A stretch of DNA of 64,000 nt from Streptomyces hygroscopicus (lineage in GTDB: Bacteria; Actinomycetota; Actinomycetes; Streptomycetales; Streptomycetaceae): positions 124,001-188,000 of the forward strand of contig CP018627.1 of assembly GCA_002021875.1 (NCBI GenBank), read 5' to 3'. Of the stretch, positions 23,328-56,928 are shown piece after piece (position 1 is the stretch's first letter; every line of letters starts with the position of its first letter). A program made the translations under genes and the position numbers. Under the pieces are notes generated by a model that made no database searches, was not told where the DNA came from, and was given only the letters and a program-made list of their open reading frames with translations.

Positions 23328-24192
23328 GACCGTGTCCTATGTGGTGAGGCGGACGAGCCTCTTGTAGCAGCACAGGGTGGCGGCCAGTCCGAGAAAGGCC
23401 AGGTAGTTGCGGGGATTGCGTTCGTAGCGGGGGCTGAGCCGGCGGTATTCGGACAGCCACGACATGGTGCGCTCGATGACCCAGCGGCGTCGCCCTAATC
23501 GTTCGCTGGACTCGATGCCTTTGCGGGCGATACGCACTCCGATGCGCTTCCAGCGAAGCCATCTGCGCAGATCAGCCCGGTCGTAGGCTTTGTCTGCACG
23601 CAAACGTTGGGGCTTGAAGTGACGGCCGCGGTGAGGGTCGTGTCTCGTTTGGTGACCCTCGACCATGGGCTTCAGCCCTTCGCTGTCGTGGGTGTTGCCG
23701 GCTGAGACGCCGACGAGGAGAGGCAGTCCGTTCGCGTCCGACAAGACGTGCATCTTGGAACCCGGCTTGCCGCGGTCCACGGGGCTCGGACCTGTGTGTT
23801 CGCCCCCTTTTTCGCCCGCACGTGAGCGGTGTCCAGGACGACACGGGTGACATCGATGAGGCCGGCGTCGTCGAGCCGGTGCAACACGGCTTCGTGCAGG
23901 CGACCCCAGACACCGGCTCTCGACCAGATGAGGAACCGGCGGTGGGCGGTCGACTTCGATATGCCGAAGCAGGGCGGCAGAGCCCGCCAGGCGCAGCCAC
24001 TGACCAGCACATAGATGATGGCCGCGAACAACGTCTCATCAGGCGTGTCCTGCGTTCCACCGCCCTGCGGCCGAACCCTCGACGGCGGGATCAGCGGCTT
24101 CGCGATCTCCCACAGGCCGTCGGGAACAATCCAACTCCACGTACCCCGCCCCATACCGAGGTCAACGACGCCTCACCACATAGGACACGGTC
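23328..24192 (-). mobile_element. IS5-family (IS427-group) insertion sequence, complete
   Basis: An 865-bp element with perfect terminal inverted repeats of about 24 bp (starting GACCGTGTCCTATGTGGTGA) and a TTA direct repeat at 23325-23327 and 24193-24195. Size, repeat and 3-bp A/T-rich target duplication fit the IS427 group. Its right TTA overlaps the TA used by the adjoining IS630-type element, so the two insertions abut. Confidence 0.92.
23337..24154 (-). CDS. IS5-family transposase, two overlapping frames (frameshift expression)
   Basis: OrfA (24154 to 23672) encodes the N-terminal domain: WIVPDGLWEIAKPLIPPSRV, SGCAWRALPPCFGISKSTAH and IDVTRVVLDTAHVRAKKG (first Asp). OrfB (about 23800 to 23337) continues with DRGKPGSKMHVLSDANGLPL (second Asp), YDRADLRRWLRWKRIGVRI and the ERTMSWLSEYRRLSPRYERN block (Glu). 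The frames overlap around AAAAAGGGGG (23803-23812), a plausible slippery site, which is how IS427-group elements make the fused transposase. No other lesion is seen, so the element is likely active. Confidence 0.9.
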
Positions 24193-24195
24193 TTA

Positions 24196-24227
24196 GTGGT
24201 CGGCTCCGGAAGTCCTTCGGGGGTTGA
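24196..24227 (+). repeat. Left 32-bp terminal repeat of the IS630-type transposon
   Basis: Identical, inverted, to 27609-27640. Preceded by TA. Confidence 0.9.
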
Positions 24228-25391
24228 TCAAGCTGCCGGCGCGACGGAGGATTCTTCTGGGTGATCGGCGGTGTGCCGGTCGAGTCTGGCCAGCAGATCG
24301 CCCAGGTCGGAGTGGTGAACTTCCACTGGAACGGCTGTGCCGTGGCGTTGTAGCGGTCTTCGAAAGCTCGGAGCCGGTTCCCGACTTGGGCAAGGTCGGT
24401 GAAGTCATTGGGCGCCACGACCTTGCGCTGCACGACGGAGAAGAAGATCTCCACCTGGTTCAGCCAGGAGGCGTGCACCGGGGTGTGGACCAGCACCGTG
24501 TTCGGGAACGCCGCGGTCAGCCGGTCTGCGGCCTTCTTGCCGCGGTGGGAGGAGCCATTGTCGACGACCCAGAACACGCGTTTTGCGCTCGTGTACGGTT
24601 CCTGGCTCATGACCTGAGCGACGAGAGCCATGAACGGGTCAATGCCGGTGCGTGCTTCGGTGCGGCCGAACACGCGGGCGTGGTGGACGTCGTAGGCGGC
24701 CAAGTAGGTCAGCGCTCCGCCGCGGCCGTAGGTGTGGTTCACTCGCATCGCCCTCGCCTGCCCTGCTGCGAGGGTGGGGTGACAGCGGCAGCGGGCCTGG
24801 ATGGAGGTCTTCTCATCCGCGCTTATGACGTACTCGTCCGCACCGAGCGGCCTGCCGTTGAAGGTGCGGGCGTAGAGGTCCAGCACGCGCTCGGCCTTGG
24901 GGCGGAAGTCAGGGTCGGTGATGAAGATCCAGGATCGGTGCTGCCAGGGCTTGAGGGTGTCCTGGGCGAGCCAGCGACGCACGGTGGAGGCCGACACGAA
25001 CGTGGCGATCTCTCGCGCCATGGCCTCGCGGGCCAGCTCCGAGCACGACCAACGCGACAGTGGCGCGCCGGCGTCGAAGGGAAGCCGACAGGCCAGGGCC
25101 TTGACCTGGGCGACCTGCAAGGCGGTGAAGCGGGGCGGACGGCCGGAGCGCTTGCGATCGGCTAGCCCAGTGAGTCCCAGCGCAGCGAATCGGTTCCGCC
25201 AGGTCCGCACGGTGTCCAGGTGTAATCCGGTCTCACGGGCGATGCGCGCGTTGGAGCGCCCACGCGCCGCGTGCAGGACCACCTGAGCCCGCATACGCAG
25301 CCGGTGCTCGGTCTTGACCGTAGGCCATCCTCTTCAGCCGCTCGCGCTCGGCGGGGGTCGGGGCTATCGCACGGGCCTGGGCAACAGACAA
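24228..25391 (-). pseudogene. IS630-family transposase with frameshifts near both ends
   Basis: The central frame is long and well conserved: ARGRSNARIARETGLHLDTV (helix-turn-helix), YVISADEKTSIQARCRC (first Asp), RVFWVVDNGSSHRGKKAADR (second Asp) and HASWLNQVEIFFSVVQRK (Glu). The expected N-terminus (PTPAERERLKRMAYG) is in another frame, with the break near 25320 in GGTCAAGACC. Near the 3' end one base is missing after KFTT, and the natural ending (LARLDRHTADHPEESSVA) lies in a third frame. The core is intact but the protein as read is not. Confidence 0.85.
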
Positions 25392-30599: not shown

Positions 30600-32576
30600 T
30601 CAGGGACGCCGGAGCGGATGTGAGGAGCTTCGAAGAGTTTCCGACAGGGTGTGCAGGCGCACCGCCACCGAGATGCGGAAGAACGACTCCGCGTCCCGCC
30701 ATGTGCTGCCGAGCAGTTGGGTGATCCTGTCGAGCCGCTGTAGCACGGTGTTGCTGTGCACGCCCATCAGCCGCGCGGTGCGGGCGGGGCTGGCGTTGCA
30801 GTCCACGAAGTGGTGGAGGGTGGCGAGCAGATCGGTCCCCCGTTCGGCGTCCCAGCGCCGGACGGGGGCGATGGTGCGATCGATGAACTGCCGCACGCTG
30901 GTGGGGTCGTGGGCGAACAGCGTCGTGTACGGCAGGTAGGCGTCGGCCGCGACCGCGGCCGCCTCGATGCCGAGGGCGGTCAGCACCCGGCCGCAATCCC
31001 GGGCCGTCGTAAAACGCGCGCTCAGTTCGTCGAGGCTCTCCGCGGGGGGCGCGGCCACGGTCAGCACCGCGCCGACCCCCGTCGCGGCACACAGGCGGTC
31101 GCGGACGGCGGTCGCCGCGCGCTGCGGATCACTCTCCGGCACGACGAGTGTGACGACGCCGTCCACTTCGCCCGCCAGGCCGGACGGCGCGGCCGCCGTC
31201 TGGGTGGCCCGCAGCGCGGCACGGCGCTGTTCGGGCGCCACCACGGTGATGACGACGGTCCGCAGGTCCTCCGGGCGCAGTCTGCGGGCGCGCAGCCGGG
31301 CGGGCAGGCTCGCGCGCCGCCGGGCGTCGGGACTGACGAGGTCGCCGAGAAGTTCACCGCGCACATGGTCTTCGGCGTGGAGGACCGCGTCCTGTTTCAG
31401 GGTGAGGAGCGCGGTGATCTGTGCGGCGCGCTCGATGGTCCGCTGTTCCACCGCGCGGAGTTCGACCGTGCCGTCACCGATGAGGAGGCCGCCGAGCATC
31501 ATTTCTCCGGCGAGTACGGCGACCGCGGTGTGGAACTCGCCGGTCGGCGGGTCCAGTGGAGTGCAGCGTCCGGAGCGCAGGCTGTCGGTGATCGCCGACC
31601 GGACGGCGGGCGGGTCGATCACCGAGGCGGTGCTCCGGTCGTCGGACGCGGCGAGCACGGCATAGGTCTCGTCGAGGATGACCACGGGCCGCTCCAGTGC
31701 CGCTCCCAGAGTCCGCGCGACATCCGCGGCGCCGCCTCCGCGCAGAACTGCGGCGGTCAGCTCCTCGTGCACCCGGCCGGCGCGTTCCATCGCCTCGACG
31801 TGGTCGGCCAGCGCGTCATAGGCGCGCTGTGTCTCGGCGGCAGCGTCGCGGGCCTGGGTGAGCAGACGGGCCGATTGCAGTACGACGGCGACGTTGTCGG
31901 CGAAAGCCGACAACAGCGAGACCTCTTCCGGGGAGAAGGCGTGCTCGGTGCGATTGGCGGCGAACAGCACTCCCAGGACCCGGCCGCCGGCGATCAGCGG
32001 GACGCCCACGATGGAGACGAGGCCCTCGGCGCGGACGGCGTTGTCGATGCTGTCGTCATGGGGCACATCGCGCAGCTGTTCATAGCGTGAGGTCCACTGC
32101 GGAGCGCGGGACTCGACGATCTTGCTGGCCAGACCGATATGGGGCGGCACCCTCAGCTTCTGGAAGGACGGGGCGACCGCCCCGGCGGTGGAGCGGACCC
32201 TCAGCTCACGGGTGGTCTCGTCGAACTCGGACAGATAGGTGACATCGGTTCCGGCCAGGTCGTGGGCGCGCCGTACCAGCCGGGTGATCAGCAGATCCAC
32301 GTCGTGCAGTTCGGCGAGTTCCCGTGCGCTGGAGAACAGAGCGGCCAGTTCCTGTCCGCGCCGGTGCGACCGGGCCATCGCGCCCTGGAGCTCGCGAACC
32401 CGGCGGCCCACCTGGGTGGCCGTGGCGGTGTCGAGATGCTCGGTGAGCAGCAGGTCGGTCACGGCGTCGGGCTCGTCCGGGGGGCCTTTCGCGGCGAGAT
32501 CGAGCAGGGCCAGGACAGCGGTCACCGGGACGTCGGCCTGCCGTGCCGCCCGTTCGGTGTCCCGGGGCGCTCCCAT
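30600..32576 (-). CDS. GAF-domain PucR/CdaR-type transcriptional regulator
   Basis: About 658 residues. The N-terminal GAF domain (RELAELHDVDLLITRLVRRA, GIGLASKIVES-like region, VSIVGVPLIAGGRVLGVLFA) would sense a small molecule. A middle GGDEF-like/CdaR region follows (VTLVVPESDPQRAATAVRDR). The C-terminal PucR helix-turn-helix is clear: LLATLHHFVDCNASPARTAR, LMGVHSNTVLQRLDRITQLL. ATG 32576 was preferred; ATG 32621 is in frame but without a ribosome site. It is divergent from the HMG-CoA/hydantoinase-like operon and is the obvious candidate for its substrate-responsive activator. Confidence 0.85.
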   Translation of the reverse strand: MGAPRDTERAARQADVPVTAVLALLDLAAKGPPDEPDAVTDLLLTEHLDTATATQVGRRVRELQGAMARSHRRGQELAALFSSARELAELHDVDLLITRLVRRAHDLAGTDVTYLSEFDETTRELRVRSTAGAVAPSFQKLRVPPHIGLASKIVESRAPQWTSRYEQLRDVPHDDSIDNAVRAEGLVSIVGVPLIAGGRVLGVLFAANRTEHAFSPEEVSLLSAFADNVAVVLQSARLLTQARDAAAETQRAYDALADHVEAMERAGRVHEELTAAVLRGGGAADVARTLGAALERPVVILDETYAVLAASDDRSTASVIDPPAVRSAITDSLRSGRCTPLDPPTGEFHTAVAVLAGEMMLGGLLIGDGTVELRAVEQRTIERAAQITALLTLKQDAVLHAEDHVRGELLGDLVSPDARRRASLPARLRARRLRPEDLRTVVITVVAPEQRRAALRATQTAAAPSGLAGEVDGVVTLVVPESDPQRAATAVRDRLCAATGVGAVLTVAAPPAESLDELSARFTTARDCGRVLTALGIEAAAVAADAYLPYTTLFAHDPTSVRQFIDRTIAPVRRWDAERGTDLLATLHHFVDCNASPARTARLMGVHSNTVLQRLDRITQLLGSTWRDAESFFRISVAVRLHTLSETLRSSSHPLRRP

Positions 32577-32779
32577 GTCCACCACCCTGTCCGCCCTGCC
32601 CACCCTGTGTGAATCACCCATTGAAAACTTTGCACCGTGTACTCATAGTACATGGTCGCTGTTACCCGGCGTATCTAAAGTCTGAGGTGTGACAGCGGCG
32701 TCATCCCATGAACATCTGCTGTTCACAGGCCGTACCGCAGGGCCCGGTGCCCACCTCGACCACAGTGTGACTCTCCGGC

Positions 32780-33319
32780 GTGACGACGGACTCTTCACCG
32801 CAGGACATGATCATGATCGATGAACAGCTACTCCAACCCACCTACCGCCGCCGGTGCGGCGGGGCCGCGCCCCGGCAGCGGTCCGCCATGTGCTCCATGG
32901 GCGTGGAGCCCCGGGCGGTTCCCGCTCTGCGGGCCTTCACCCGCGACGTGGCGACACGGTGGGGGGCACCCGAGGAGACCATCGACGCACTGCGCGTGAT
33001 CGCCACGGAGTTGGTCACCAATAGCGTGCTGCACAGCGGAAGCTCCGAGGTGAGCCTGCTGCTGACGGTCGACGGCTCCACGGCCTCCGTCGAGGTCAGA
33101 GACGCCGGCACCTGGCGGGAACGGTGCCCTGGCACCGGGGTGCCCGACCAGATGGTGGATGGGCGGGGGCTGGGCCTGGTCCACGCCTACGCCACAACAT
33201 GCCGGGTTCAGCGGGACTCGCAGGGCACGGCCGTCCGCGCCGAGCTGCTGATTCCGCTTCCCGCTCAGCGAGGACATCCGCGGGACCTGCCCGGTCGCCG
33301 GTCGCCGGCCGGGTGGTGA
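32780..33319 (+). CDS. HATPase-fold (RsbW-like anti-sigma type) protein
   Basis: About 179 residues. The core matches the small Streptomyces ATP-binding proteins of the GHKL fold: RAFTRDVATRWGAPEETIDA, VIATELVTNSVLHSGSSEVS (N-box with ELVTNSVLH), VEVRDAGTW (G1-type DxG) and GRGLGLVHAYATTC (G2). These act as serine kinase/anti-sigma factors. No partner anti-anti-sigma or sigma gene is next to it. The start is uncertain (GTG 32780 or ATG near 32807). It lies between the PucR regulator and mvaA with a 122-bp gap to the latter. Confidence 0.75.
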   Translation: MTTDSSPQDMIMIDEQLLQPTYRRRCGGAAPRQRSAMCSMGVEPRAVPALRAFTRDVATRWGAPEETIDALRVIATELVTNSVLHSGSSEVSLLLTVDGSTASVEVRDAGTWRERCPGTGVPDQMVDGRGLGLVHAYATTCRVQRDSQGTAVRAELLIPLPAQRGHPRDLPGRRSPAGW

Positions 33320-33441
33320 AACGGGCGGTCGCGGCGCCCGACGCCGCCCTGACCGTCACGCCCCCGGGAGCCATGCCGCTGCTCCCCCCGCTCCGCCGGG
33401 CCTGTCTCCCCTTGAGCTCGTCACCGAAAGCAGGAGGATCC

Positions 33442-34716
33442 ATGGCAGTCAACAGCAGGCTTTCCGGTGTGAAGGACCTGTCGATCAGTGAGCGCCGCGC
33501 CCGTATCGCGCGCGGTGCCGCAGTCGAGCCGGAGAGTCTGGAGGTGCTCGATCCCGAGTACGGCCTCACCCTTGAGCAGGCCGACCACATGGTCGAGAAC
33601 GCCATAGGTGTCCTCGGCGTCCCGCTGGGCGTGGCCACCAATTTCACCGTCAACGGCCGCGACTATCTGATCCCCATGGCCACCGAGGAGCCATCGGTGA
33701 TCGCCGCGGCCAGCAACGCCGCCCGTATCGCCCGCGTCACCGGCGGATTCACCACCTCGACCACGGAAGCGCTCATGCGGGCGCAGATCCAGGTCCTCGA
33801 TGTCGCCGATCCGCACACCGCCCGGCTACGCCTGCTCGAGGCGCGTGAGGAGCTCATCGCGCTGGCCGACGCACAGGACCCTCAGCTCCTCCGGTTCGGC
33901 GGCGGCGTCCGGGATGTGGATGTGCATCTGGTCGACGCTCCCGGATGCACCTATGTGGTGCTGCACCTGATCGTGGACGTACGCGACGCGATGGGCGCCA
34001 ACGCCGTCAACACCATGGCCGAGGCGATCGCCGGGCGGGTCGGGCAGATCGCCCGGGGGCGCACGCTGCTGCGGATCCTCAGCAACAAGGCAGACCTGCG
34101 GCTGTGCCGGGCGCGTGCGGTGTTCGACGCCGACGCGCTCGGAGGGCCTGAGGTGGTCGACGACATCGTGCACGCCGCCGCTCTGGCCGAGGCGGACCCG
34201 TACCGCGCCGCCACCCACAACAAGGGGATCATGAACGGCGTCATCGCGGTCGTGCTGGCCACCGGCAATGACACCCGCGCCGTCGAAGCCGGCGCCCACT
34301 CGCACGCGATCGGCCGGTACCGTGGGTACACGTCCCTGTCGCACTTCGAGAAGGACTCCGACGGCAACCTGGTCGGCGCGCTGGAGCTGCCGATGGCGGT
34401 CGGCCTGGTCGGCGGGGCCACCAAGGTGCACCCGGTCGCGCAGGCCGCTGTGGCCCTGCTCGGCGTCACCACGGCCCGCGAGCTGGGCGAAGTCATCACC
34501 GCCGTCGGCCTGGCACAGAATCTCGCCGCGGTCCGGGCTCTGGCGACCGAGGGCATCCAGCGCGGCCATATGTCGCTGCACGCCCGCAATGTCGCCGTCA
34601 CCGCCGGCGCCACCCCCGAGGAACTGCCGCTCGTGGTCGCCCGGCTGATCACCGACCGGGCCGTGCGTGCCGACCATGCCGAGAAAGTCCTCGCCGAGCT
34701 GCGCGGCGAGGGCTGA
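33442..34716 (+). CDS. mvaA: Hydroxymethylglutaryl-CoA reductase, class II (degradative)
   Basis: A 424-residue enzyme, the length of the Pseudomonas mevalonii class II enzyme. Key blocks: VENAIGVLGVPLGVATNFTV, MATEEPSVIAAAS (Glu83), VDVRDAMGANAVNTM, ATHNKGIMNGV (Lys261), ATGNDTRA (Asp277) and QRGHMSLHARN (His376), covering the catalytic Glu, Lys, Asp and His. Class II enzymes usually oxidise mevalonate with CoA and NAD to HMG-CoA. ATG 33442 follows a perfect AGGAGG. It is first in a run of six same-strand genes that includes HMG-CoA lyase, so a catabolic direction is favoured over isoprenoid synthesis. Confidence 0.93.
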   Translation: MAVNSRLSGVKDLSISERRARIARGAAVEPESLEVLDPEYGLTLEQADHMVENAIGVLGVPLGVATNFTVNGRDYLIPMATEEPSVIAAASNAARIARVTGGFTTSTTEALMRAQIQVLDVADPHTARLRLLEAREELIALADAQDPQLLRFGGGVRDVDVHLVDAPGCTYVVLHLIVDVRDAMGANAVNTMAEAIAGRVGQIARGRTLLRILSNKADLRLCRARAVFDADALGGPEVVDDIVHAAALAEADPYRAATHNKGIMNGVIAVVLATGNDTRAVEAGAHSHAIGRYRGYTSLSHFEKDSDGNLVGALELPMAVGLVGGATKVHPVAQAAVALLGVTTARELGEVITAVGLAQNLAAVRALATEGIQRGHMSLHARNVAVTAGATPEELPLVVARLITDRAVRADHAEKVLAELRGEG

Positions 34717-34766
34717 TGCCTCGCCTCACCGCCTGCACGAATCTGAGCCAAGGGAGACGCTGAGAC

Positions 34767-36827
34767 ATGGCACTACAGGTTGGTATCGACGTCGGTGGCA
34801 CATTCACCGACGCGGTCGCGGTCCTCGACGGCCGCGCGGTCCGCGGGAAGGCGTTCTCGACGAAGGACGTCACCACCGGCATCCTGGGCGCGCTGGCCGT
34901 GCTCCAGGAGCGCGCGGGCATGTCCGAGAGGGAGTTCTACCCGGCCGTCGACCGGTTCGTGCTCGGCAACACGATCGTCACCAACGCGGTCGACGAGCAG
35001 AAGTACGCCACGGTGGCGCTCCTCACGACGCAGGGGTTCCGCGACACGATGCGGATCGCCCGGTCGGCGCGGACCGATGAGCGCGACCCGCACAAGATGC
35101 TGCCACCGCCCACCATCGTCGAGCGCGGCCGCGTCATCGAGGTCGCCGAACGTGTCGACGCCCACGGCGAGGTCCTGGTGCCGTTGCGGCCGGAGGCCAT
35201 CGCCGCAGCGGTGGACACCGCGCTCGCCACGGGCGCGGAAGCCATCGCCGTATGTCTGCTGTGGTCGTTCCGCAACCCCGCCCATGAGCAGGCCATCGGC
35301 CGGTATCTGCGGGAGAACCACCCGGACGTCCCGTTCACCCTCTCCAGCAGCCTGACGCCGGTCTACCGTGAGTACGAGCGCATGGTCACCACGGCGCTCG
35401 ACGCCGCGGTCAAACCGCTCGTCGCCTCGCACTTCGACCACCTCGCCGAGGAGCTGCGCGCCCGCGGCCTGCGTGCTCGTGTGCAGATCATGCAGGTCCA
35501 CGGCGGGTTCCTGTCGGTCGAGGAGACCAGCAAGGCGCCGATCTCCATGTTCAACTCCGGGCCGGTCGGCGGCGTCACCGGCGCCCGTCTGCTCGGGCAG
35601 CAATTGGGCAGGCGCCGGGTGCTGACCGCCGACATGGGTGGCACCAGCCTGGATGCCGCCGCGATCATGGATGATGAGTTCCGGCTGCTCCCGCGGGCCG
35701 AGATCGGCGGTCTGCCGACGAGTCTGACCGTCGTCGACATCGAGACGATCGGCGCCGGCGGCGGCAGCGCCGCCTGGGTGGACGGCCGTGGTCTGCTCCG
35801 GGTCGGTCCGCACAGCACGGGCTCCACTCCCGGTCCCGCCTGCTACGGCAAGGGCGGAACCCGCCCGGCGGTCACCGACGCCGCACTCGTACTCGGCCTG
35901 ATCAACCCCGGCTACTACCTCGGCGGGACCGTCGAGCTGTACGAGGACCTGGCGCGCGAGGCACTGCGCGCGCATGTCGCGGAGCCCCTCGGACTGACCG
36001 AGGACGCCGCGGCCGAGGGCGTGTACCGCCTCGCCACCTCCCAGATGGCGAACGCGCTGCGCAAGATCACCGTCAACCGCGGCCATGACCCGCGGGAGTT
36101 CACCCTCGTCGGTTTCGGCGGCGCCTGCGGCCTGTTTGCCGCGAGCATCGCCGCCGAGATCGGGGTGAGCGAACTCGTCATCCCCCGCAACGCCGCGGTG
36201 TTCTCGGCCTACGGACTCATGCACGCCGATTCCGTCTTCTCCGCCGTGCGGACCAGCCCCTGGACGATGCGGCAGCCGGCCGCCGACCTGGACCGCGAGT
36301 TCCAGGCCCTGGAGCGGCGCGCCCGGGCGTGGTTCGACGCCGAGGGCATCCCCGAGGACCGGCGGGAGCTGTTCCGCGAGGCCGACATGAAGTTCGTCGG
36401 CCAGATCTTCGAGGTCACCACTCGGCTGAAGGGCGGGACCTTCACCGAGGCGGACAAGGACGAACTGCGCGCGCGGTTCATCGCCGACTACGAGACCGAG
36501 TTCGGGGCCGGCACGGCCTGGACCGAGACCGACATCCTGCTGGTCAACTCCCGGGTGCGCGCGGTCGGCCGCAGTGACGTCCAGCAGGTCCGGCAGATCG
36601 TGGAAGCCGACAGGGAGACCCATACGCTGCTGCGCCGCACCATCCTCGAACCGGCGACCGGAGCACGGACCGAGGTGGAGGTGCACCGCGGCTTCGCCGC
36701 GCTGGCGCGGGCGAAGGGCCCGTGTCTGCTGGAGGAGCCCGACACCACCGTCTATGTGCCCACCGGAGCCACGGTGGAGCTGACCGACGCCGGCCACTTC
36801 CTCATCCGGCTCCAGCCGTCCGTCTGA
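34767..36827 (+). CDS. hyuA: Hydantoinase/oxoprolinase/ketone-carboxylase family, subunit A (ATP-binding)
   Basis: A 686-residue protein of the HyuA/AcxA superfamily with an acetate-kinase-like ATPase fold: QVGIDVGGTFTDAVAVLDGR at the start, LGNTIVTNAV, MQVHGGFLSVEETSKAPISM, LTADMGGTSLDAAAIMDDE and VDIETIGAGGGSAAWVDGRG. Members split amides such as N-methylhydantoin or 5-oxoproline, or phosphorylate and carboxylate ketones (acetone and acetophenone carboxylases). The family alone does not decide. The partner hyuB carries a carboxylase-type tail and the downstream genes handle CoA esters of branched acids, which favours carboxylation. Start ATG 34767, 50 bp after mvaA. Confidence 0.88.
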   Translation: MALQVGIDVGGTFTDAVAVLDGRAVRGKAFSTKDVTTGILGALAVLQERAGMSEREFYPAVDRFVLGNTIVTNAVDEQKYATVALLTTQGFRDTMRIARSARTDERDPHKMLPPPTIVERGRVIEVAERVDAHGEVLVPLRPEAIAAAVDTALATGAEAIAVCLLWSFRNPAHEQAIGRYLRENHPDVPFTLSSSLTPVYREYERMVTTALDAAVKPLVASHFDHLAEELRARGLRARVQIMQVHGGFLSVEETSKAPISMFNSGPVGGVTGARLLGQQLGRRRVLTADMGGTSLDAAAIMDDEFRLLPRAEIGGLPTSLTVVDIETIGAGGGSAAWVDGRGLLRVGPHSTGSTPGPACYGKGGTRPAVTDAALVLGLINPGYYLGGTVELYEDLAREALRAHVAEPLGLTEDAAAEGVYRLATSQMANALRKITVNRGHDPREFTLVGFGGACGLFAASIAAEIGVSELVIPRNAAVFSAYGLMHADSVFSAVRTSPWTMRQPAADLDREFQALERRARAWFDAEGIPEDRRELFREADMKFVGQIFEVTTRLKGGTFTEADKDELRARFIADYETEFGAGTAWTETDILLVNSRVRAVGRSDVQQVRQIVEADRETHTLLRRTILEPATGARTEVEVHRGFAALARAKGPCLLEEPDTTVYVPTGATVELTDAGHFLIRLQPSV

Positions 36828-36855
36828 ACGCCACGGCCCGATCCAGGAGACCCAC

Positions 36856-39012
36856 ATGACCGAATCCGCCACCGGCCGGCTTCCCGCCGGGTTCGACCCC
36901 GTCACGCTCGAGGTCATCCGTATGCGTCTGGACTCCATCGTCGAGGAGATGGGCATCGCGATGATCCGCTCGTCCGGCTCGCCGGTGATCACCGAGGCCG
37001 GCGACTTCAACACCGCGCTGTTCGACCCGACCGGCCGCATCTACGCCTACTCCGACTACGTCCAGTTCCACATCGGCTCCGGCAGCGTCGCCGTGCAGAA
37101 TCTGGTCCGGGAGATCGCCGGTGAGCCACTCGCCCCCGGTGACGCCTTCATCTGCAACGATCCGCACACCGCCGGTGCGAGCCACCCGCCGGACACGAAT
37201 GTGATCTCACCGATCTTCCACGGTGACGAGCTGATCGGCTGGGCGCAGTCCCAGGCCCATCTCGTCGACGTCGGCGGTATGACGCCGGGCGGCTTCGCCC
37301 CCGGGGCCTATGACTGCTACAGCGAGGCGCTCCGGCTCCCGCCGGGCGTGAAGATCTTCGAAAAGGGCGAGCCCGTCGAATGGGTGCGGCGCATCCTGCT
37401 CAACAACGTCCGGGTGCCCGCGCTGTTCTGGAACGATGTGCGCTCCCTGGTGGCCAGCAACAACACCGGTATCCAGCGGCTTCTCGCCACGATCGGGGAA
37501 TTCGGGCTCGACGACTTCCGCGAGTACACCCGGCTCAGCTTCGAGCTGGCGGAGCAGGTGGTCCGTGACCGTGTCGCGAAGATCCCCGACGGAACGTACA
37601 CGGCCGAGGAGTGGACCGAGCACAACGGCCATGCCGACGAGCTGTACCGCGTCGCCTGCGCCATGACCAAGCGGGGCGAGCAGATCACATTCGACTTCAC
37701 CGGATCCAGCGAGCAGACCGACGGCTTCGTCAACTGTAGTTACGGAGCCCTCGTCGGAAGCGTCGCCACGGCGGTCGTGCCCATCCTCGCCTGGGACGTG
37801 CCATTCAACGAGGGCGTCATGACCGCCTTCGAGGTCATCGCCGAGCCGGGCTCCATCGTCAACCCCACTCCCCCGGCCCCGATCAGCAACGGGCATCTGA
37901 CGACCGGCGCCCGCGTCAGCCGGCTGGTCACCAAGCTGATGAACGACGCCTGCCGGGGCAGCGCGGACGAGACCGTCCGCGGCCGCACCCAGGGTGTGTG
38001 GGCCGACTCGTGGACCGGCGGCATCTCGGCCGGCACCTCGGACGACGGCGAGTACTTCGTGCTGTTCAACATGGACGGCGGCGGCATGGGGGCGGGAGCC
38101 CAGCCGGACACCGACGGTCTGGACTGCGCCGGGATGATGACGCAGGTCAACAACATGCTCCCGGACGTCGAGATGAACGAGATGCTCTATCCCGTCCTCT
38201 ACTTGTGGAAACGGCTCAACATCGCCAGCGCCGGGCACGGGGCCCACCGCGGCGGTCTGGGACTGGAGTTCGCCTGGACCCTGCACGGTGCGCCCTCCGC
38301 CACGCAGACCGTGTTCGCCCCCAGCGCCCAAGTGGTCGCCGACGGATACGGCGGCGGGCTTCCCGGCGGGGGCAGCGGGCACGAGATCCTGCGCCGGTCC
38401 AACATCGCCGGTCTGCTCGCCGCGGGCACCGTGCCCACCGACGACAGCCTCGCCTGCGATGTGCGGGACTTGCTGGCCATCAACCAGTCCTCGGTAAGGA
38501 TCTCGGCCGCCGATGTCTTCGTCCAGTGGATCGCCGGTGGCGGCGGGTACGGAGACCCCCTCCTGCGTGACCCGCGGCGCGTCGCCGAGGACGTCCGGGA
38601 CGCGTACATCACCGACCACACGGCATCCGCCGTCTACGGGGTGGTGCTCGCCGACGGTGCCGTGGACGCCGCCGCGACGACGCGCGCACGCGAGGCGATG
38701 CGCGCCGCCCGGATCGGCGGGGACCCGACCGCGCCGGTCGCCGCCGACGCCGCCGCCGGGGCATCCGCGCCCCGCCATGCCGCGGACGGCTGGTACTGCC
38801 CGGCCAGCGGTGCCCTGATCAGCACCAAGGACGACTGGCGGCAGGACGCCATCGTCACCACGCGGGTGGCCGCCGACCGGCTGGGCGAGTACGGCGTCCG
38901 CGTACGCCCCCGGGGCGACGGGCAGCGGGTGCTCCTCGATGAGTTCTACAGCCCGCGCTGCGGCACCCTGCTCGACGCACGCATCCGGGTCGAAGCCGCC
39001 ACCACCCGCTGA
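36856..39012 (+). CDS. hyuB: Hydantoinase/oxoprolinase/ketone-carboxylase family, subunit B with C-terminal Cys extension
   Basis: A 718-residue protein. Residues 1 to about 600 match HyuB/AcxB: DPVTLEVIRMRLDSIVEEMG, AGDFNTALFDPTGRIYAYSD, GDAFICNDPHTAGASHPPDT, WAQSQAHLVDVGGMTPGGFA and GGGGYGDPLLRDPRRVAEDV. Usual HyuB proteins end shortly after this. Here about 95 more residues follow, with GWYCPASGALISTKDDW and LLDEFYSPRCGTLLDARIRV. The final block resembles the small gamma subunit of acetone carboxylase (CPxCGTLLD-type ending). The protein may thus be a fused B plus gamma carboxylase subunit. AGGAG lies six bases before ATG 36856, and hyuA ends 28 bp upstream. Confidence 0.87.
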   Translation: MTESATGRLPAGFDPVTLEVIRMRLDSIVEEMGIAMIRSSGSPVITEAGDFNTALFDPTGRIYAYSDYVQFHIGSGSVAVQNLVREIAGEPLAPGDAFICNDPHTAGASHPPDTNVISPIFHGDELIGWAQSQAHLVDVGGMTPGGFAPGAYDCYSEALRLPPGVKIFEKGEPVEWVRRILLNNVRVPALFWNDVRSLVASNNTGIQRLLATIGEFGLDDFREYTRLSFELAEQVVRDRVAKIPDGTYTAEEWTEHNGHADELYRVACAMTKRGEQITFDFTGSSEQTDGFVNCSYGALVGSVATAVVPILAWDVPFNEGVMTAFEVIAEPGSIVNPTPPAPISNGHLTTGARVSRLVTKLMNDACRGSADETVRGRTQGVWADSWTGGISAGTSDDGEYFVLFNMDGGGMGAGAQPDTDGLDCAGMMTQVNNMLPDVEMNEMLYPVLYLWKRLNIASAGHGAHRGGLGLEFAWTLHGAPSATQTVFAPSAQVVADGYGGGLPGGGSGHEILRRSNIAGLLAAGTVPTDDSLACDVRDLLAINQSSVRISAADVFVQWIAGGGGYGDPLLRDPRRVAEDVRDAYITDHTASAVYGVVLADGAVDAAATTRAREAMRAARIGGDPTAPVAADAAAGASAPRHAADGWYCPASGALISTKDDWRQDAIVTTRVAADRLGEYGVRVRPRGDGQRVLLDEFYSPRCGTLLDARIRVEAATTR

Positions 39013-39048
39013 TTCCACAGCGGTATTCGAAAAAGGAGGTGTGGTCGC

Positions 39049-40311
39049 GTGACGGAGTTCAACACCGGGTTCGACCTCGCTGCCGCCCTGCCGGGCGGTC
39101 CCGCACACGGGGCGCTGCGCGGGGTCGTGGTCCTCGACATCACACGGGTGGTCGCCGGCCCGTTCTGCTCGATGATGCTCGCGGATCTCGGAGCGACGGT
39201 CATCAAGATCGAGAATCCGAAGGACCCGGACTATGCGCGCGAGTTCCCCCCGCTGCTGACCTCGCCCGAGGGCGAGGCGTTCAGCGCGTTCTTCGCCCAG
39301 TACAACCGGAACAAGCTCGGCATGACCCTGGACCTGTCCCGGCCCGAGGGCAAGGAACTGCTGCGCACGCTCGTCAGCCGCGCGGACGTCCTGGTCGAGA
39401 ACTTCCGTGGCGGGACCATGGACAAGCTGGGCGTCGGCTACCGCGAGCTGCGGAAGGTCAATCCGCGGCTGGTCTACACCGCGATCTCCGGCTACGGCCA
39501 GACCGGCCCGTACCGGCGCAAGCCCGCGTACGACAACAGCGCGCAGGCCACGGGCGGTCTGTGGTCGATGAACGGCTTCCCCGACCGCCCTCCGGTCCGG
39601 GTCGGCACCATCATCGGCGACCTGTCTGCCACGCTCTACGCCGTGATCGGCACGCTCGCCGCGCTGCGGCACGCCGAGCGCACCGGTGAAGGGCAGTTGG
39701 TGGACATCTCCCAGCAGGACTCGGTGCTCAGCCTGACCGAGAACGCGGTCGTCTCCCACACCGTCGAGGGCAAGGTGCCGGCTCCGCTCGGCAATGAGCA
39801 TCCGTTCGTCAAACCCTATGAGCTCTATCCGTGCAGGGACGGCTTCGTCTTCTTCGGTGGCTACACCGACAAGTTCTGGCGGTTGACGTGCGAGATGTTC
39901 GGCGAACCCGCACTGGCGGCCGACCCGGAGATCGACACGATGGCCAAGCGGTTCACCCCGGAGGTCTACCAGCGCCGGGTGCGGCCGCTGCTGCACAGGT
40001 GGTTCGCCGATCGCGCCAAGCTCGAACTGGAGGAACTCGCCGGCGACCTCGTGCCGCTGAGCGCCATCAAGGACATCGGGGAGGTCATCGCGGATCCCCA
40101 GATCCAGGCCCGGGACATGATCGTCGACGTCGAGTACCCGGACTTCGGACCACTGCGTATGGTCGGCACACCGGTCAAACTCGACGTCACCCCGGCCCGG
40201 CCCCGGGGACTGGCTCCCCAGGTCGGCGAACACACCGACCAGATGCTGCGCGCCTTCGCGGACCTCTCCGAGGAACACATCCGCGCCCTGCGCGAGTCGG
40301 GGGTGGTCTGA
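39049..40311 (+). CDS. CaiB/BaiF-family CoA-transferase
   Basis: A 420-residue class III CoA-transferase. RGVVVLDITRVVAGPFCSMM, LADLGATVIKIENP and YNRNKLGMTLDLSRPEGKEL open the fold, and AYDNSAQATGG supplies the catalytic Asp162, followed by GDLSATLYAVIGTLAALRHA and GEGQLVDISQQDSVLSLTEN. It moves CoA from a donor thioester to a carboxylic acid. In this operon it would activate the acid made or used by the Hyu enzymes so that the hydratase can act. GTG 39049 is preceded by AAGGAGGT eight bases upstream, a strong site. The next gene starts one base after its stop. Confidence 0.92.
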   Translation: MTEFNTGFDLAAALPGGPAHGALRGVVVLDITRVVAGPFCSMMLADLGATVIKIENPKDPDYAREFPPLLTSPEGEAFSAFFAQYNRNKLGMTLDLSRPEGKELLRTLVSRADVLVENFRGGTMDKLGVGYRELRKVNPRLVYTAISGYGQTGPYRRKPAYDNSAQATGGLWSMNGFPDRPPVRVGTIIGDLSATLYAVIGTLAALRHAERTGEGQLVDISQQDSVLSLTENAVVSHTVEGKVPAPLGNEHPFVKPYELYPCRDGFVFFGGYTDKFWRLTCEMFGEPALAADPEIDTMAKRFTPEVYQRRVRPLLHRWFADRAKLELEELAGDLVPLSAIKDIGEVIADPQIQARDMIVDVEYPDFGPLRMVGTPVKLDVTPARPRGLAPQVGEHTDQMLRAFADLSEEHIRALRESGVV

Positions 40312-40312
40312 G

Positions 40313-41110
40313 ATGAGCGGCATCACCCTCGACCGTGACGGACCGGTCGCGCTCATCCGGTTCGACCGGCCGGAGAAACTGAACTCACTGACCCTGGCGA
40401 TGTACGAGGAGCTGGGAGCGGCCTTCGACGAGGTCCGCGACGACGAGTCGATCGGCGTCGCGGTCCTCACGGGCGCGGGGCACCGTGCCTTCTGCGTCGG
40501 CGCCGATCTCACCGAATCGATCCCCGCGCTCGCCGAGGGCCGGTTCGACATCTCCCGATGGGACGGTGCCCACCAGAAACACACCACCTTGTTCAAGCCG
40601 GTCATCGCGGCGGTCAACGGGCTCTGCCTCGGCGGCGGGTTCGAGATCATGCTCTCCACGGACCTGCGGATCGCCGCCGAAACGGCCGAGTTCGGGCTCC
40701 CCGAGAGCGGTGTCGGGGTCGTCCCGGCCGGCGGCACCCTGACGCGGCTGACCCGGCAGATCCCCTACGTCTGGGCCATGGAGCTGATGCTGCTCGGCGA
40801 CCGGATCACCGCGGCCACCGCCCTGCGGTACGGCCTGCTCAACGCCGTGGTACCGGCCGAACGGTTGCTCGAGGCGGCGATGGACCGGGCACACCGGCTC
40901 ACCGCCCGCAGCGGCACCGCCCTGGAGACGATCAAGGAGTCGGTGCTGCGTCTCGGGGGCCTCCCGCAGGACCAGGCATTCCACAGCGAGGCGCTGTACG
41001 GGCAGCGGGCGTTCACCTCCCCGGACGCCCATGAGGGACTGGCCGCGTTCGCCGAACGCCGTCCGCCCGACTTCCCCTCCCGCCGGAACGTGAACAAGCC
41101 CCCCGCATAA
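40313..41110 (+). CDS. Enoyl-CoA hydratase/isomerase (candidate 3-methylglutaconyl-CoA hydratase)
   Basis: A 265-residue crotonase-fold enzyme. The oxyanion-hole segments are HRAFCVGADLTE and AVNGLCLGGGFEIMLSTDL. Both catalytic Glu of true hydratases are present with the canonical 20-residue spacing: Glu111 in GGGFEIML and Glu131 in GLPESGVGVVPAG. It therefore probably hydrates an enoyl-CoA rather than being a mere isomerase. Position between CoA-transferase and HMG-CoA lyase suggests 3-methylglutaconyl-CoA to HMG-CoA, but the substrate is not provable from sequence. It is tightly coupled to the CoA-transferase gene and separated from the lyase gene by 114 bp. Confidence 0.9.
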   Translation: MSGITLDRDGPVALIRFDRPEKLNSLTLAMYEELGAAFDEVRDDESIGVAVLTGAGHRAFCVGADLTESIPALAEGRFDISRWDGAHQKHTTLFKPVIAAVNGLCLGGGFEIMLSTDLRIAAETAEFGLPESGVGVVPAGGTLTRLTRQIPYVWAMELMLLGDRITAATALRYGLLNAVVPAERLLEAAMDRAHRLTARSGTALETIKESVLRLGGLPQDQAFHSEALYGQRAFTSPDAHEGLAAFAERRPPDFPSRRNVNKPPA

Positions 41111-41224
41111 CGGCTCCACGCAGGAACGTCGCCCGCCGTCCGCCGTCGCCGGACGTCCGTCGCCGCCCGCGGCGTTCCGCGTGGCCCGCCCCCTTCGCCC
41201 TTCCCACCGCCTGACGGGGACGCC

Positions 41225-42208
41225 ATGACATCCGAAACCACCTCGTCCACCGACACACTGCCCCGCATCGCTCCTCAGCAGGGCATGCCCGAACAGGTCC
41301 GCATCTACGAGGTCGGCCCGCGCGACGGCCTCCAGGCCGAAGCCGTCCGCGTCCCCACCGCCGTCAAGGCCGAGTTCGTTCGGCGGCTCGTCGACGCGGG
41401 GCTGACCACCATCGAGGTCACCAGCTTCGTCTCCCCCCGGTGGATACCCCAACTCGACGACGCACACGAGGTGCTCACCGCCGTGGGCCCCCTCGATGGC
41501 ATCCGCCTCCCGGTGCTCGTTCCCAACGACCAGGGTCTGGAGCGGGCACTGGCCGCCGGTGCCCGGGAGATCGCCGTCTTCGCCAGCGCGACGGAATCCT
41601 TCGCGAAGAACAACCTGGCCCGGGACGTGGAGGGAGTGCTGGCGATGTTCGAACCCGTCACGCGCCGGGCCCGTGCCGCGGGTCTGCCGGTACGCGGCTA
41701 TGTATCGATGTGCTTCGGCGACCCCTGGGAGGGCGATGTGGAGCCCCGCAAGGTCGCCTCGGTCGCCCGCAGGCTCCTCGACATGGGCTGCACGTCCCTG
41801 TCCCTGGGAGACACCATCGGTACCGGCACCCCCGGCCATGTCCTGGAACTCCTCGACACCGTACGGGGACTGGGCATCCCCCTGGAGCGGACCGCCCTTC
41901 ACTTCCACGACACCTACGGCCAGGCCCTCGCCAATGTGCACGCCGCGCTGACAGCGGGCGTCACCGAGTTCGACAGCTCTGCCGGCGGTATCGGAGGCTG
42001 CCCCTACGCCCGCAGCGCCACCGGCAACCTCGCCACGGAGGACCTGGTGTGGATGTTGCGGGGACTCGGCATCCACACCGGGGTCGATCTGAACGCGCTG
42101 GCGGCCACGAGCCGGTGGATGGCCCATCACCTCGGCCGCCCGAGCCCCTCCCGCGTCGTCACCGCCCTCGCCCGACACTATAGGTACCAGAATCCTCGTC
42201 CGCGCTGA
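41225..42208 (+). CDS. mvaB: Hydroxymethylglutaryl-CoA lyase
   Basis: A 327-residue TIM-barrel lyase of the HMGL-like family. QVRIYEVGPRDGLQAEAVRV holds the metal-binding Asp and catalytic Arg, TIEVTSFVSPRWIPQL the substrate strand, TALHFHDTYGQALANVHAAL the metal-binding His pair, and SSAGGIGGCPYARSATGNLA the catalytic Cys loop. The enzyme cleaves HMG-CoA to acetyl-CoA and acetoacetate. ATG 41225 gives an N-terminal extension of about 22 residues before the core. It is the last gene of the block. The final residues (HYRYQNPRPR) may have been altered by the Tn3 remnant that starts just beyond. Confidence 0.93.
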   Translation: MTSETTSSTDTLPRIAPQQGMPEQVRIYEVGPRDGLQAEAVRVPTAVKAEFVRRLVDAGLTTIEVTSFVSPRWIPQLDDAHEVLTAVGPLDGIRLPVLVPNDQGLERALAAGAREIAVFASATESFAKNNLARDVEGVLAMFEPVTRRARAAGLPVRGYVSMCFGDPWEGDVEPRKVASVARRLLDMGCTSLSLGDTIGTGTPGHVLELLDTVRGLGIPLERTALHFHDTYGQALANVHAALTAGVTEFDSSAGGIGGCPYARSATGNLATEDLVWMLRGLGIHTGVDLNALAATSRWMAHHLGRPSPSRVVTALARHYRYQNPRPR

Positions 42209-44362: not shown

Positions 44363-44700
44363 ATGTCCTCCGTGATCGTGTCCTTGCTGTACAAGGTGAC
44401 CCGGAAGCTGCTGACTGTTCCATCGGTGCTCCTGCGTCGCGGGACGGCGAAGGAGGCGGAGCTGCTGGTGCTGCTACACGAGAACGCGCTCCTGCGCCGC
44501 CAGTTGGCCGGACCGGTCCGCTATGAGCCCACCGACCGGTTCTGGTTCGCAGCGCTGTCCGGGCTGATACCCCGGCGCCACTGGCGCGAGATCTTCCCTG
44601 TCACCCCGGCACCTTGCTTGCCTGGCACCGCAAGTTCGTCGCCGCGAAGTGGGACTACACCGCGCGCCGACGCGCGGGACGACCACCCTGTGGGGCTCGG
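44363..44700 (+). pseudogene. Truncated copy of the adjacent integrase-core transposase
   Basis: SVIVSLLYKVTRKLLTVPSV and ELLVLLHENALLRRQLAGPV then FWFAALSGLIPRRHWREIFP closely match the first 90 residues of the complete gene at 44757. A frameshift follows near 44605, after which the other frame gives LLAWHRKFVAAKWDYTARRR. The rest is missing. It is a divergent tandem copy, not an exact duplication. Confidence 0.75.
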
Positions 44701-44756
44701 AAAGTCGTCGCTGCAGGTGGCGTCAGGCATTCGGTCTCGGCTGGCAGCATGTCCAC

Positions 44757-45842
44757 GTGAGTGTCTCGCTGGTGTACAAGGTCGTTCGCAAACTGCTGTC
44801 CATACCCCGGGTACTCCTTCGCCGGGAAGCGACGAAGGACGCGGAGTTGCTCGTGCTGCGGCACGAGAACGCGGTGCTACGTCGCCAGATCAGCGGCCGG
44901 GTCCGGCATGAGCCCTTTGATCGGTTCTGGCTGGCTGCGCTGTCGGGGCTGATACCCCGCCACCGGTGGCGTGAAGTCTTCCCGGTCACGCCCGGCACTC
45001 TGCTGGCCTGGCATCGCAGGTTCATCGCGGCGAAATGGGACTACAGCGTGCGACGCGCTCGGACCGGGCGATCACCGACCAGGGCGGCGCTCAGGGAGCT
45101 GATTCTGCGGCTCGCCCGGGAAAACGCAGGGTGGGGCCACAGACGGATCCAGGGCGAGTTAATCGGCCTCGGGCATCCGGTCGCCGCATCCACCGTATGG
45201 GAGATCCTGAACGCTGCGGGTATCGATCCGGCCCCACGCCGCACCGGCCCAACCTGGCGCGAGTTCCTCACGAACCAAGCCGAGGGCATCATCGCTGCAG
45301 ATTTCTTTCATCTTGACACCGTGGTCGGACGCAGACTCTACGCGCTGGCCTTCCTCGAACACGGCACCCGGCGCCTCCACATCTCAGGCGTCACGGCACA
45401 TCCCTCCCGGAACTGGGCCGTGCAGCAGGCCCGGAACGTAGCCGCCGACTTGGACACACGTATGGAATCCCTGCGGTCCCTGCTCCGTGACCGCGATGGC
45501 AAGTACGGACAGTCCTTCGACGCCGTCTTCGAGGCCGACGGCATAGACGTGATCAAGAGCGCGCCACGAGCGCCGGGGATGAACGCCCACTGTGAACGGG
45601 TTTTCGGCAGCATCCGGCGCGAGGCCCTCGACCACATCCTGATCACGAACGAGTCACACGCCCGACATGTCCTTGCCGCCTACCAACGGCACTACAACAC
45701 ACACCGTCCTCATCGAAGCCGAGGCCAGCTACCTCCTGACGCCCACCAACAGCCCACCACCCCGCACGACCGCGACGCACGCAGACTCCTGCGTACACGC
45801 GTCCTCGGCGGCGTCATCAACGAGTACCGCTATGCCGCCTGA
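44757..45842 (+). CDS. Integrase-core (rve) transposase
   Basis: A 361-residue transposase. The N-terminal region (VVRKLLSIPRVLLRREATKD) is followed by a helix-turn-helix segment (ELILRLARENAGWGHRRIQG) and the rve DDE core: GIIAADFFHLDTVVGRRLYA (first Asp), RSLLRDRDGKYGQSFDAVFE (second Asp) and PGMNAHCERVFGSIRREALD (Glu). GTG 44757 is in register with the start of the partial copy upstream. The frame is intact to the TGA at 45842, so it may be active, although terminal repeats were not recognised. Confidence 0.85.
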   Translation: MSVSLVYKVVRKLLSIPRVLLRREATKDAELLVLRHENAVLRRQISGRVRHEPFDRFWLAALSGLIPRHRWREVFPVTPGTLLAWHRRFIAAKWDYSVRRARTGRSPTRAALRELILRLARENAGWGHRRIQGELIGLGHPVAASTVWEILNAAGIDPAPRRTGPTWREFLTNQAEGIIAADFFHLDTVVGRRLYALAFLEHGTRRLHISGVTAHPSRNWAVQQARNVAADLDTRMESLRSLLRDRDGKYGQSFDAVFEADGIDVIKSAPRAPGMNAHCERVFGSIRREALDHILITNESHARHVLAAYQRHYNTHRPHRSRGQLPPDAHQQPTTPHDRDARRLLRTRVLGGVINEYRYAA

Positions 45843-54953: not shown

Positions 54954-55195
54954 TGACAACGCCTCTCTTCGGGCACGACGAGGCCGTGGCTGCGGAGATG
55001 GTGGGTGCCGGGCTGGGCGGCGGGAGGACGCACGGCCGGACTGACTGGTGGCGTACCCGGATCGACAGTGGGGTGGGGGGCGTCGAGGGCGGCGGGCCAA
55101 GGGCGCACGGGGCGGCGGCTGCCCGACGGGTGGTGTGGCGGGCGCTGCCGCCGCGTCGGGCCGCGCCGCCCCGGGACGAACGGGTGGGGCCCGGG

Positions 55196-55477
55196 TCAGA
55201 GGAGCCCGTGCCGGGCGGCGGCGGCCTTCACCGCTTCGCGCAGTTCGTCCATGTCGATGATGCTGTTCAGGACGACCACGTCGCCCAGTCCCTGAGCGGC
55301 GTCCTCCAGGTCCTTCGCCACGAAGAACACGTCGGCGCTGTCCGGTCCGGCGGAGCTGATGTCGGAGTGCTCGACCGTGACGGCCGAGAGCCCCAGCTCA
55401 CCGACGATGGTCTCGATGTTCATGCGCACCATGAAACTGCTGCCGAGGCCGGTGCTGCACATGGCCAGGAACTTCAT
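55196..55477 (-). CDS. ulaB: Ascorbate-type PTS EIIB component
   Basis: A 93-residue phosphotransfer protein. KFLAMCSTGLGSSFMVRMNI holds the phosphorylated Cys7 in the CxxGLGxS loop of lactose/ascorbate-type EIIB. DVFFVAKDLEDAAQG and VVVLNSIIDMDELREAV complete the Rossmann-like fold. It takes phosphate from EIIA and passes it to the sugar bound by EIIC. Its ATG overlaps the EIIA stop (ATGA), so translation is coupled. Confidence 0.92.
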   Translation of the reverse strand: MKFLAMCSTGLGSSFMVRMNIETIVGELGLSAVTVEHSDISSAGPDSADVFFVAKDLEDAAQGLGDVVVLNSIIDMDELREAVKAAAARHGLL

Positions 55478-55935: not shown

Positions 55936-55968
55936 CTACAGGGTTGTTCTCAAGGCCGCCCGGAATCG

Positions 55969-56697: not shown

Positions 56698-56734
56698 CTG
56701 TGATCTCCTCATCGAGTTCATGCGTCGTCGAGAC

Positions 56735-56745
56735 GTCATGATGAC
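56735..56745. promoter_or_regulatory. GntR operator candidate, left copy
   Basis: GTCATGATGAC, a palindromic HutC-type site (GTCAT-n-ATGAC) 38 bp upstream of the GntR start. It is repeated in inverted orientation at 56909. Confidence 0.6.
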
Positions 56746-56908: not shown

Positions 56909-56928
56909 GTCATCATGACGTCATGATC
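56909..56928. promoter_or_regulatory. GntR operator candidate, right copy
   Basis: GTCATCATGACGTCATGATC contains one full palindromic site plus a second half site, 17 bp before the transketolase start. The shared GACGTCATGAT core occurs at both copies. Confidence 0.6.

Follow-up and report, generated by a model that had tools for sequence, protein, structure and literature searches.

Parts of several described systems resemble a six-gene operon that fills positions 33442 to 42208 of the window analysed here, a stretch of 64,000 nucleotides of Streptomyces hygroscopicus DNA (contig CP018627.1, positions 124,001 to 188,000). In Pseudomonas mevalonii the mevalonate-degradation operon mvaAB combines a degradative 3-hydroxy-3-methylglutaryl-coenzyme A (HMG-CoA) reductase and an HMG-CoA lyase in one gene run, as does the window operon, which, unlike mvaAB, adds two hydantoinase/carboxylase-type subunits (HyuA and HyuB), a CaiB-like class III CoA-transferase, an enoyl-CoA hydratase and a PucR-type regulator. 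The pairing of a class III CoA-transferase with an enoyl-CoA hydratase that we propose for the window is also found in the carnitine system, where CaiB and CaiD cycle CoA likewise between crotonobetaine and carnitine; the window proteins score below the CaiB and CaiD equivalog cut-offs (NF002914, 137.7 versus 413 bits; NF002936, 154.2 versus 500 bits). In fungi, according to the available part of PMC3709128, mevalonate is converted to anhydromevalonyl-CoA through SidI and SidH and then attached to N5-hydroxyornithine. Mevalonate, mevalonyl-CoA and anhydromevalonyl-CoA, intermediates of this SidI/SidH/SidF pathway, are those proposed here for the operon, but the fungal route is biosynthetic and uses a CoA ligase, whereas our scheme is reversed and uses a CoA-transferase, with a hydratase that is distant from its fungal counterpart (116 bits). 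For HyuA and HyuB, the top-scoring solved structures are hydantoinases and caprolactamase, with ATP and metal motifs kept and a HyuA of 686 amino acids compared with 696 in CapA; unlike these enzymes, the window HyuB has a tail resembling the gamma subunit of acetone carboxylase and its own branch in a tree. The gamma-type match (PF08882) is shared with acetone and acetophenone carboxylases by the HyuB tails of the window and of a Conexibacter locus (L011), but in the window the gamma-like part is fused to HyuB, half of its zinc cysteines are lost and there is no extra alpha' gene. Domains of the biotin-dependent 3-methylcrotonyl-CoA carboxylase of the leucine/isovalerate (liu) route were not found among the six genes. 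Neither this gene set nor bacterial use of anhydromevalonate is described in the titles and opening abstract text of the open-licence PMC articles listed by our searches, in agreement with a first-pass annotation of the DNA that knew of no such pathway.

The six genes are intact, lie on the forward strand and are separated, in order, by 50, 28, 36, 1 and 114 bp (Table 1). Coordinates, intactness and domains all bear out the first-pass annotation, as does its comparison of the reductase (MvaA) and the lyase (HMGL) with mvaAB, since both same-strand genes pass curated cut-offs. MvaA scored 414.5 bits against TIGR00532, a model named 'degradative' (cut-off 259.95; scored on the longer reading frame 33124-34716), and 421.7 bits against structure chain 1qax, which we take to be the P. 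mevalonii enzyme. HMGL scored 373.3 bits against NF004283 (cut-off 246) and 308.7 bits against the human HMGL chain, and contains the motifs VGPRDGLQ, HFHDTYGQAL and GGCPYA; these, and the Glu pair held in the hydratase motifs GGGFEI-107 and LPESGVG-129, are presumably catalytic. HyuA, HyuB, CaiB and the hydratase belong to their Pfam families and reached the cut-off of none of the NCBIfam models listed (for the hydratase, the best 25 of 73), the top model for CaiB being succinyl-CoA:mesaconate CoA-transferase (319.8 bits, under the cut-off of 700). The nearest named proteins of HyuB are from Streptomyces antimycoticus and S. malaysiensis, and that of HyuA is from S. hygroscopicus. Promoter and terminator counts were close to those of shuffled sequence (1 versus 0.5 and 2 versus 2.3), and 14 inverted-repeat pairs, found by a scan run without a control, were not used as evidence.

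Table 1. Features of the operon and its divergent regulator, in window coordinates.
Feature	Position	Strand	Length (amino acids)	Basis
mvaA, degradative class II HMG-CoA reductase (mevalonate to HMG-CoA)	33442..34716	+	424	TIGR00532; 1qax chain
hyuA	34767..36827	+	686	PF01968, PF05378; ATP motifs
hyuB, metal-site subunit with C-terminal gamma-like stretch	36856..39012	+	718	PF02538
HyuB C-terminal acetone-carboxylase-gamma-like stretch	38653..39012	+		PF08882, tail scanned alone
caiB-like class III CoA-transferase, GTG start	39049..40311	+	420	PF02515
crotonase-type enoyl-CoA hydratase, both Glu present	40313..41110	+	265	PF00378; motifs
HMG-CoA lyase (HMGL)	41225..42208	+	327	NF004283; human HMGL chain 2cw6
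PucR/GAF-type regulator, divergent from the operon	30600..32621	-		PF13556 and GAF domains

Partners around MvaA and CaiB loci, including the best 80 of at least 80 loci from a scan of named genomes for MvaA, were mapped by tblastn, counting one cluster per genome or record and scoring as CaiB-positive a CaiB relative at 50% identity or more and as HMGL-positive a match at 40% or more within the fetched stretch. Even samples comprised 394 genomes of the class, 59 of one genus and 249 of one order (that of L012). The 33 CaiB-positive clusters, which exclude the window itself, include 15 reached via MvaA searches and 18 found CaiB-first, and the latter weigh more because the MvaA-first route to the others favours a link between CaiB and MvaA. 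MvaA is rare, in 5 of 392 genomes of the genus of the window and 16 of the 394 class genomes, and CaiB is rarer (9 of 394: eight by search and a ninth, G584, after reading its locus L128, where CaiB is 62% identical); the CaiB-negative status of class genomes lacking MvaA comes from the search only, which missed the CaiB of G584. The complete six-gene order of the window was also found in L086, which comes from a close relative (94-97% identity), and in L007 of Sciscionella, and five of the six genes, without the lyase, in L088. In other arrangements, a HyuA-HyuB-CaiB-hydratase block is located close to MvaA in Streptomyces (L006 and L021), in L087 and L089 of the same genus, in Brevibacterium (L010), in Conexibacter and, by annotation, on a Rhodococcus pseudokoreensis plasmid (L102). 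Recurrence of all or most of the genes in several genera shows that their clustering is not due to chance, and the operon noted by the first-pass annotation is real, rare, conserved and on one strand.

The partner most faithful to CaiB is MvaA, which was present in all 33 CaiB-positive clusters, the 18 CaiB-first ones included. Likewise, MvaA accompanied CaiB in 8 of 8 class genomes found by search, in 6 of 6 CaiB-positive genomes among the 59 of one genus and in both plasmid records with CaiB, and it adjoins CaiB in all five CaiB-positive genomes of the 249 of one order and in Hyphomicrobiales as well. A linked HMGL occurred in 24 of the 33 clusters and in the other nine none was linked; all four genomes queried among these nine (L012, L017, L020 and L088) have an HMGL match elsewhere, at 53-65% identity except in the L020 genome, where it is only 40%. 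Every CaiB-positive cluster also has a hydratase, of crotonase type in 24, MaoC type in 12 and both in three (MaoC type being identified as PF13452 by Pfam in two scanned clusters and by tblastn in the rest); since the two unrelated types both partner CaiB, hydratase function is what is conserved. HyuAB was seen in 10 of the 33 clusters, never with the MaoC type, and not in the other 23, which suggests that it is a supply step outside the core. A class-wide HyuB search matched only the window (1 of 394 genomes), and HyuAB therefore cannot be profiled without bias. Two side observations concern these partners: a second, distant CaiB-like gene (33-37%) ends MaoC-type clusters in L095 (8080-8985) and L116 (3386-4159), and on haloarchaeal plasmids (L105, 9001-11964; L124, 8001-10621) the gene immediately after a degradative MvaA is of the AtuA family and in L105 carries PF07287 and AtuA_ferredoxin PF23544.

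Some loci were treated individually. Short copies of other loci (L001-L005), fragments or flanks (L099-L101, L122, L123) and the haloarchaeal HyuAB locus L103 were left out of the cluster counts. Counted were L019 (a contig of a metagenome-assembled genome in which CaiB and MvaA are broken and HyuAB was possibly lost), G548 (MvaA split across two contigs) and G1021 (as joined, with MvaA 11.6 kb from CaiB). L011 and L113 were scored HMGL-positive on matches of 42% and 47%, and G1059, whose contig stops just past HMGL, was scored CaiB-negative.

Importer genes indicate what CaiB and the hydratase may supply. Among the 16 MvaA-positive genomes of the class sample, a gene of the tripartite-tricarboxylate type (Tct) lay near MvaA in 7 of 7 without CaiB and 0 of 9 with CaiB (Fisher test, 9e-5). 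When every fetched cluster is considered, Tct or TRAP genes occur in 31 of 86 MvaA-positive, CaiB-negative clusters and in none of the 33 with CaiB; no relative of the Tct/TRAP queries was found in the 64-kb window. MvaA also occurs with Tct or TRAP genes in named genomes. We infer that Tct carries mevalonate, and the mutual exclusion beside MvaA would then mean that cells either import mevalonate or make it internally via CaiB and the hydratase. Because of this exclusion, and because CaiB tracks MvaA and not HMGL, the product of CaiB and the hydratase is better taken as mevalonate than as HMG-CoA; with direct output of HMG-CoA there would be no evident reason for CaiB to track MvaA or to replace a mevalonate importer. 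CaiB and the hydratase thus look like a second source of mevalonate, and the first-pass annotation was right, or likely so, that a second acid enters a mevalonate-degrading operon. A mevalonate-only reading was rejected because CaiB and the hydratase are retained alongside MvaA and are mutually exclusive with the Tct importer, and CaiB activation of free HMG acid, acetone-type carboxylation to acetoacetate and CaiB as an acetoacetate CoA-transferase were rejected because each leaves the hydratase without a role.

The operon probably degrades mevalonate to acetyl-CoA and acetoacetate. That its core (MvaA, HMGL, CaiB and the hydratase) would take anhydromevalonate to mevalonate and on to these products is the reading we favour, although we consider its chances evenly balanced. 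CaiB would move CoA onto anhydromevalonate (5-hydroxy-3-methylpent-2-enoate), the hydratase would add water to anhydromevalonyl-CoA to give mevalonyl-CoA, and CaiB would pass the CoA to the next anhydromevalonate, freeing mevalonate; these would be the fungal SidI and SidH steps run backwards. The last two steps, oxidation of mevalonate to HMG-CoA by MvaA and its cleavage to acetyl-CoA and acetoacetate by HMGL, are well supported by family. HyuAB would be an optional, ATP-dependent addition that either releases the acid from a precursor or forms it from one, and the divergent PucR regulator would control the operon.

A possible source of anhydromevalonate is suggested by the neighbours of MaoC-type clusters. 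In the available parts of PMC3709128 and PMC12278577, triacetylfusarinine C is described as three acetylated anhydromevalonyl-hydroxyornithine units joined by esters, the same units occurring in coprogen. The 12 MaoC-type clusters hold an alpha/beta hydrolase in eight (top model macrolide esterase, 143 bits, below the cut-off of 420), two kinds of Amidohydro_3 gene in six and seven, peptide-type ABC permeases in seven, an M20 gene in five, an FMN-binding gene (PF04299) in four and an ornithine cyclodeaminase in three (528.5 bits versus a cut-off of 350). At 40% identity, the permeases were found in 3 of the 86 MvaA-positive, CaiB-negative clusters and all the others in none. In L096 (7707-17036) and L116 (4209-13305), MvaA, HMGL, CaiB, MaoC, the FMN-binding gene, the cyclodeaminase and two amidohydrolases run in one direction; both runs have a divergent esterase-like gene and are candidate whole-siderophore catabolic clusters. 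Such neighbours are as would be expected for the breakdown of fungal hydroxamate siderophores. Tentatively, then, the family may represent a dedicated bacterial pathway that eats the acyl arm of these siderophores, in which anhydromevalonate from fusarinines or coprogens would be converted via CoA esters to mevalonate and then consumed by HMG-CoA reductase running in reverse and by HMG-CoA lyase. MaoC-type clusters would dismantle the whole molecule with the esterase, amidohydrolases, ornithine cyclodeaminase and a peptide importer. The crotonase-type clusters, which in Streptomyces include HyuAB, would handle the alternative double-bond isomer or else a ring-closed piece of the molecule, for example a diketopiperazine or a lactone. 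If right, the anhydromevalonate reading would supply the catabolic route that is missing for a C6 acid used by fungi in their iron carriers, explain degradative HMG-CoA reductases beside CoA-transferases in soil bacteria, link a HyuA/HyuB subfamily filed as hydantoinase or oxoprolinase to testable substrates and bear on the contest of bacteria and fungi for iron.

Several observations weigh against the anhydromevalonate pathway or its siderophore source. The siderophore-type genes were not found in the 64-kb window, and the source is for this reason a proposal for the family that reaches the window only by extension. The esterase, both amidohydrolase kinds and the cyclodeaminase are in 0 of 21 crotonase-only clusters, the cyclodeaminase occurs in only three genomes of one genus, and in three of the five M20 clusters (L091, L092 and L115, the three genomes with both hydratase types) M20 lies by the crotonase copy and not the MaoC copy. 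Other genes are present in crotonase-only clusters: an Amidohydro_3 relative together with an MFS gene (L006 and L021), weaker Amidohydro_3 relatives (L010 and L090), and, in six (L012, L015, L104, L111, L112 and L114), a Liv-type binding protein, which is also in 4 of the 86 CaiB-negative clusters. The window hydratase scores 116 bits against fungal SidH and is no closer to it than to 5jbw/5jbx (132 bits), presumably 3-methylglutaconyl-CoA hydratase, and its similarity is not decisive between anhydromevalonate and 3-methylglutaconate as the acid. The top-scoring named CaiB families act on dicarboxylates (mesaconate and glutarate), and HyuAB has no reaction allotted in the scheme. Finally, common descent of the clusters means that their counts are not independent, and many of the 86 CaiB-negative loci are short contigs or belong to distant groups.

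The alternative that survives best, unlikely as we judge it, is the route of the first-pass annotation, in which carboxylation of 3-methylcrotonate (or of a C5 acid related to it) by HyuAB yields 3-methylglutaconate; this is activated by CaiB and hydrated to HMG-CoA, which HMGL cleaves, MvaA being a separate mevalonate branch. The dicarboxylate families to which CaiB is similar suit this route, as does an HMGL within the operon, and ferrichrome A, whose acyl group is 3-methylglutaconate, would also account for an ornithine cyclodeaminase. It is less well supported than entry by way of mevalonate, because CaiB tracks MvaA, a linked HMGL is missing from nine of the 33 clusters and MvaA from none, and HyuAB was not seen in 23; if the branches were independent, the exclusion of CaiB and Tct beside MvaA would be unexplained. 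Moreover, 3-methylcrotonate is no ketone, and the leucine pathway could take care of it.

The carboxylation step of this route depends on the kinship of HyuAB, for which the evidence is divided. HyuA scored 401.8, 318, 289 and 229 bits, and HyuB 216, 185, 147 and 122 bits, against N-methylhydantoinase, caprolactamase, acetophenone carboxylase and acetone carboxylase, respectively. In a beta-subunit tree of 14 rows, the HyuB family groups with neither the hydrolase pair nor the carboxylase pair, but very long reference branches make the tree indecisive. The HyuA ATP motifs (DVGGTFTD-8, DMGGT-289, GSTPGP-352) and the HyuB Asp-His-Asp-His metal site (D50/H110/D113/H135, invariant in 28 aligned sequences) are present as described for caprolactamase in the available part of PMC8453981. 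The NCBIfam cut-offs were reached neither for ApcC, ApcA and ApcD (288.1 versus 1500, 172.5 versus 1250 and 146.8 versus 1500) nor for CapA and CapB (459.4 and 233.5, each versus 1000). The carboxylase side is represented by the last 119 residues of HyuB, which, scanned alone, match PF08882 at 23.4 bits (gathering threshold 21), a match that is not listed in the full-length scan (E 0.001). Among six HyuB tails the window and L011 (28.1) exceed the threshold, L010 (18), L007 (13.9) and L088 (11.7) fall below it and L006 gives no hit; in precomputed Pfam data, PF08882 occurs in 3 of 120 HyuB homologues, among the matches listed. Of the four zinc cysteines, the window keeps two; L011 and the consensus of 28 sequences have the full set. 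According to the available part of PMC5214803, no hydantoinase complex contains gamma, and gamma probably has no direct part in carboxylation. As regards this rule of two subunits and no gamma, the operon has hyuA and hyuB and no separate gamma gene, and its HyuB tail matches PF08882 weakly. The first-pass annotation had staked its carboxylase on HyuAB not being closest to hydantoinases or oxoprolinases: by bits HyuA is nearest N-methylhydantoinase, the tree sides with neither group and the tail leans to the carboxylases. The HyuAB reaction could thus be ATP-driven ring opening or carboxylation, the weak gamma-like match keeping a carboxylase possible. A haloarchaeal HyuA/HyuB pair (39-40%) lies between CaiB-type CoA-transferase and AMP-binding proteins in L103 (6863-11199), a stretch without MvaA, and HyuAB relatives may serve other pathways.

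Quite unlikely is a pair of branches that share only regulation, MvaA and HMGL degrading mevalonate while HyuAB, CaiB and the hydratase process another compound that bypasses both mevalonate and HMG-CoA. The HyuA-HyuB-CaiB-hydratase genes do form a separate divergent unit in L006, L021, L087, L089 and L102, but no CaiB-positive cluster lacks MvaA, even among those without HyuAB, and the adjacency of the two genes extends to Hyphomicrobiales. We regard as very unlikely a vinylogous carboxylation by HyuAB of a C5 enal (e.g., 3-methyl-2-butenal) to anhydromevaldate, which CaiB and the hydratase would turn into mevaldate and MvaA into HMG-CoA. This would use both the gamma-like tail and MvaA, and so fits the CaiB-MvaA link, but HyuAB was not seen in most CaiB-positive clusters and the nearest solved relative of HyuA is a hydantoinase; we know of no precedent for such a carboxylase, nor of anhydromevaldate as a nutrient. 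Most improbable of all is a biosynthetic operon whose product, mevalonate or anhydromevalonyl-CoA, would go into a secondary metabolite, since, for all that the window is situated 124-188 kb from an end of a 12.0-Mb contig and Streptomyces chromosome arms commonly hold secondary-metabolite clusters, MvaA is of the degradative type, an HMG-CoA lyase is present, importers and hydrolases accompany the relatives and no HMG-CoA synthase is among the six genes.

The divergent PucR/GAF gene is the probable regulator of the operon, a PucR-type gene being found in 27 of the 33 CaiB-positive clusters versus 14 of the 86 MvaA-positive, CaiB-negative ones; a small HATPase-type gene (32780-33319) lies between it and mvaA. 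The rest of the window has the character of a mobile-element-rich chromosome arm, with a Tn3-family transposase (1012 amino acids) and, 2.4 kb further on, a resolvase at 5553-12026, and transposase- or integrase-like genes at 16336-17700, 24173-25294 and 44649-45842. Close to the resolvase is an APH-type phosphotransferase family gene (PF01636; 12579-13475, reverse strand). Genes for phosphotransferase-system (PTS) EIIC and EIIA, a UTRA/GntR regulator and a divergent transketolase (53559-59041) suggest a sugar-uptake and pentose locus, and a GH62 enzyme with a ricin-type lectin domain adjoins a GH10 enzyme (60499-63157, reverse strand), a pair that presumably acts in plant cell-wall degradation.

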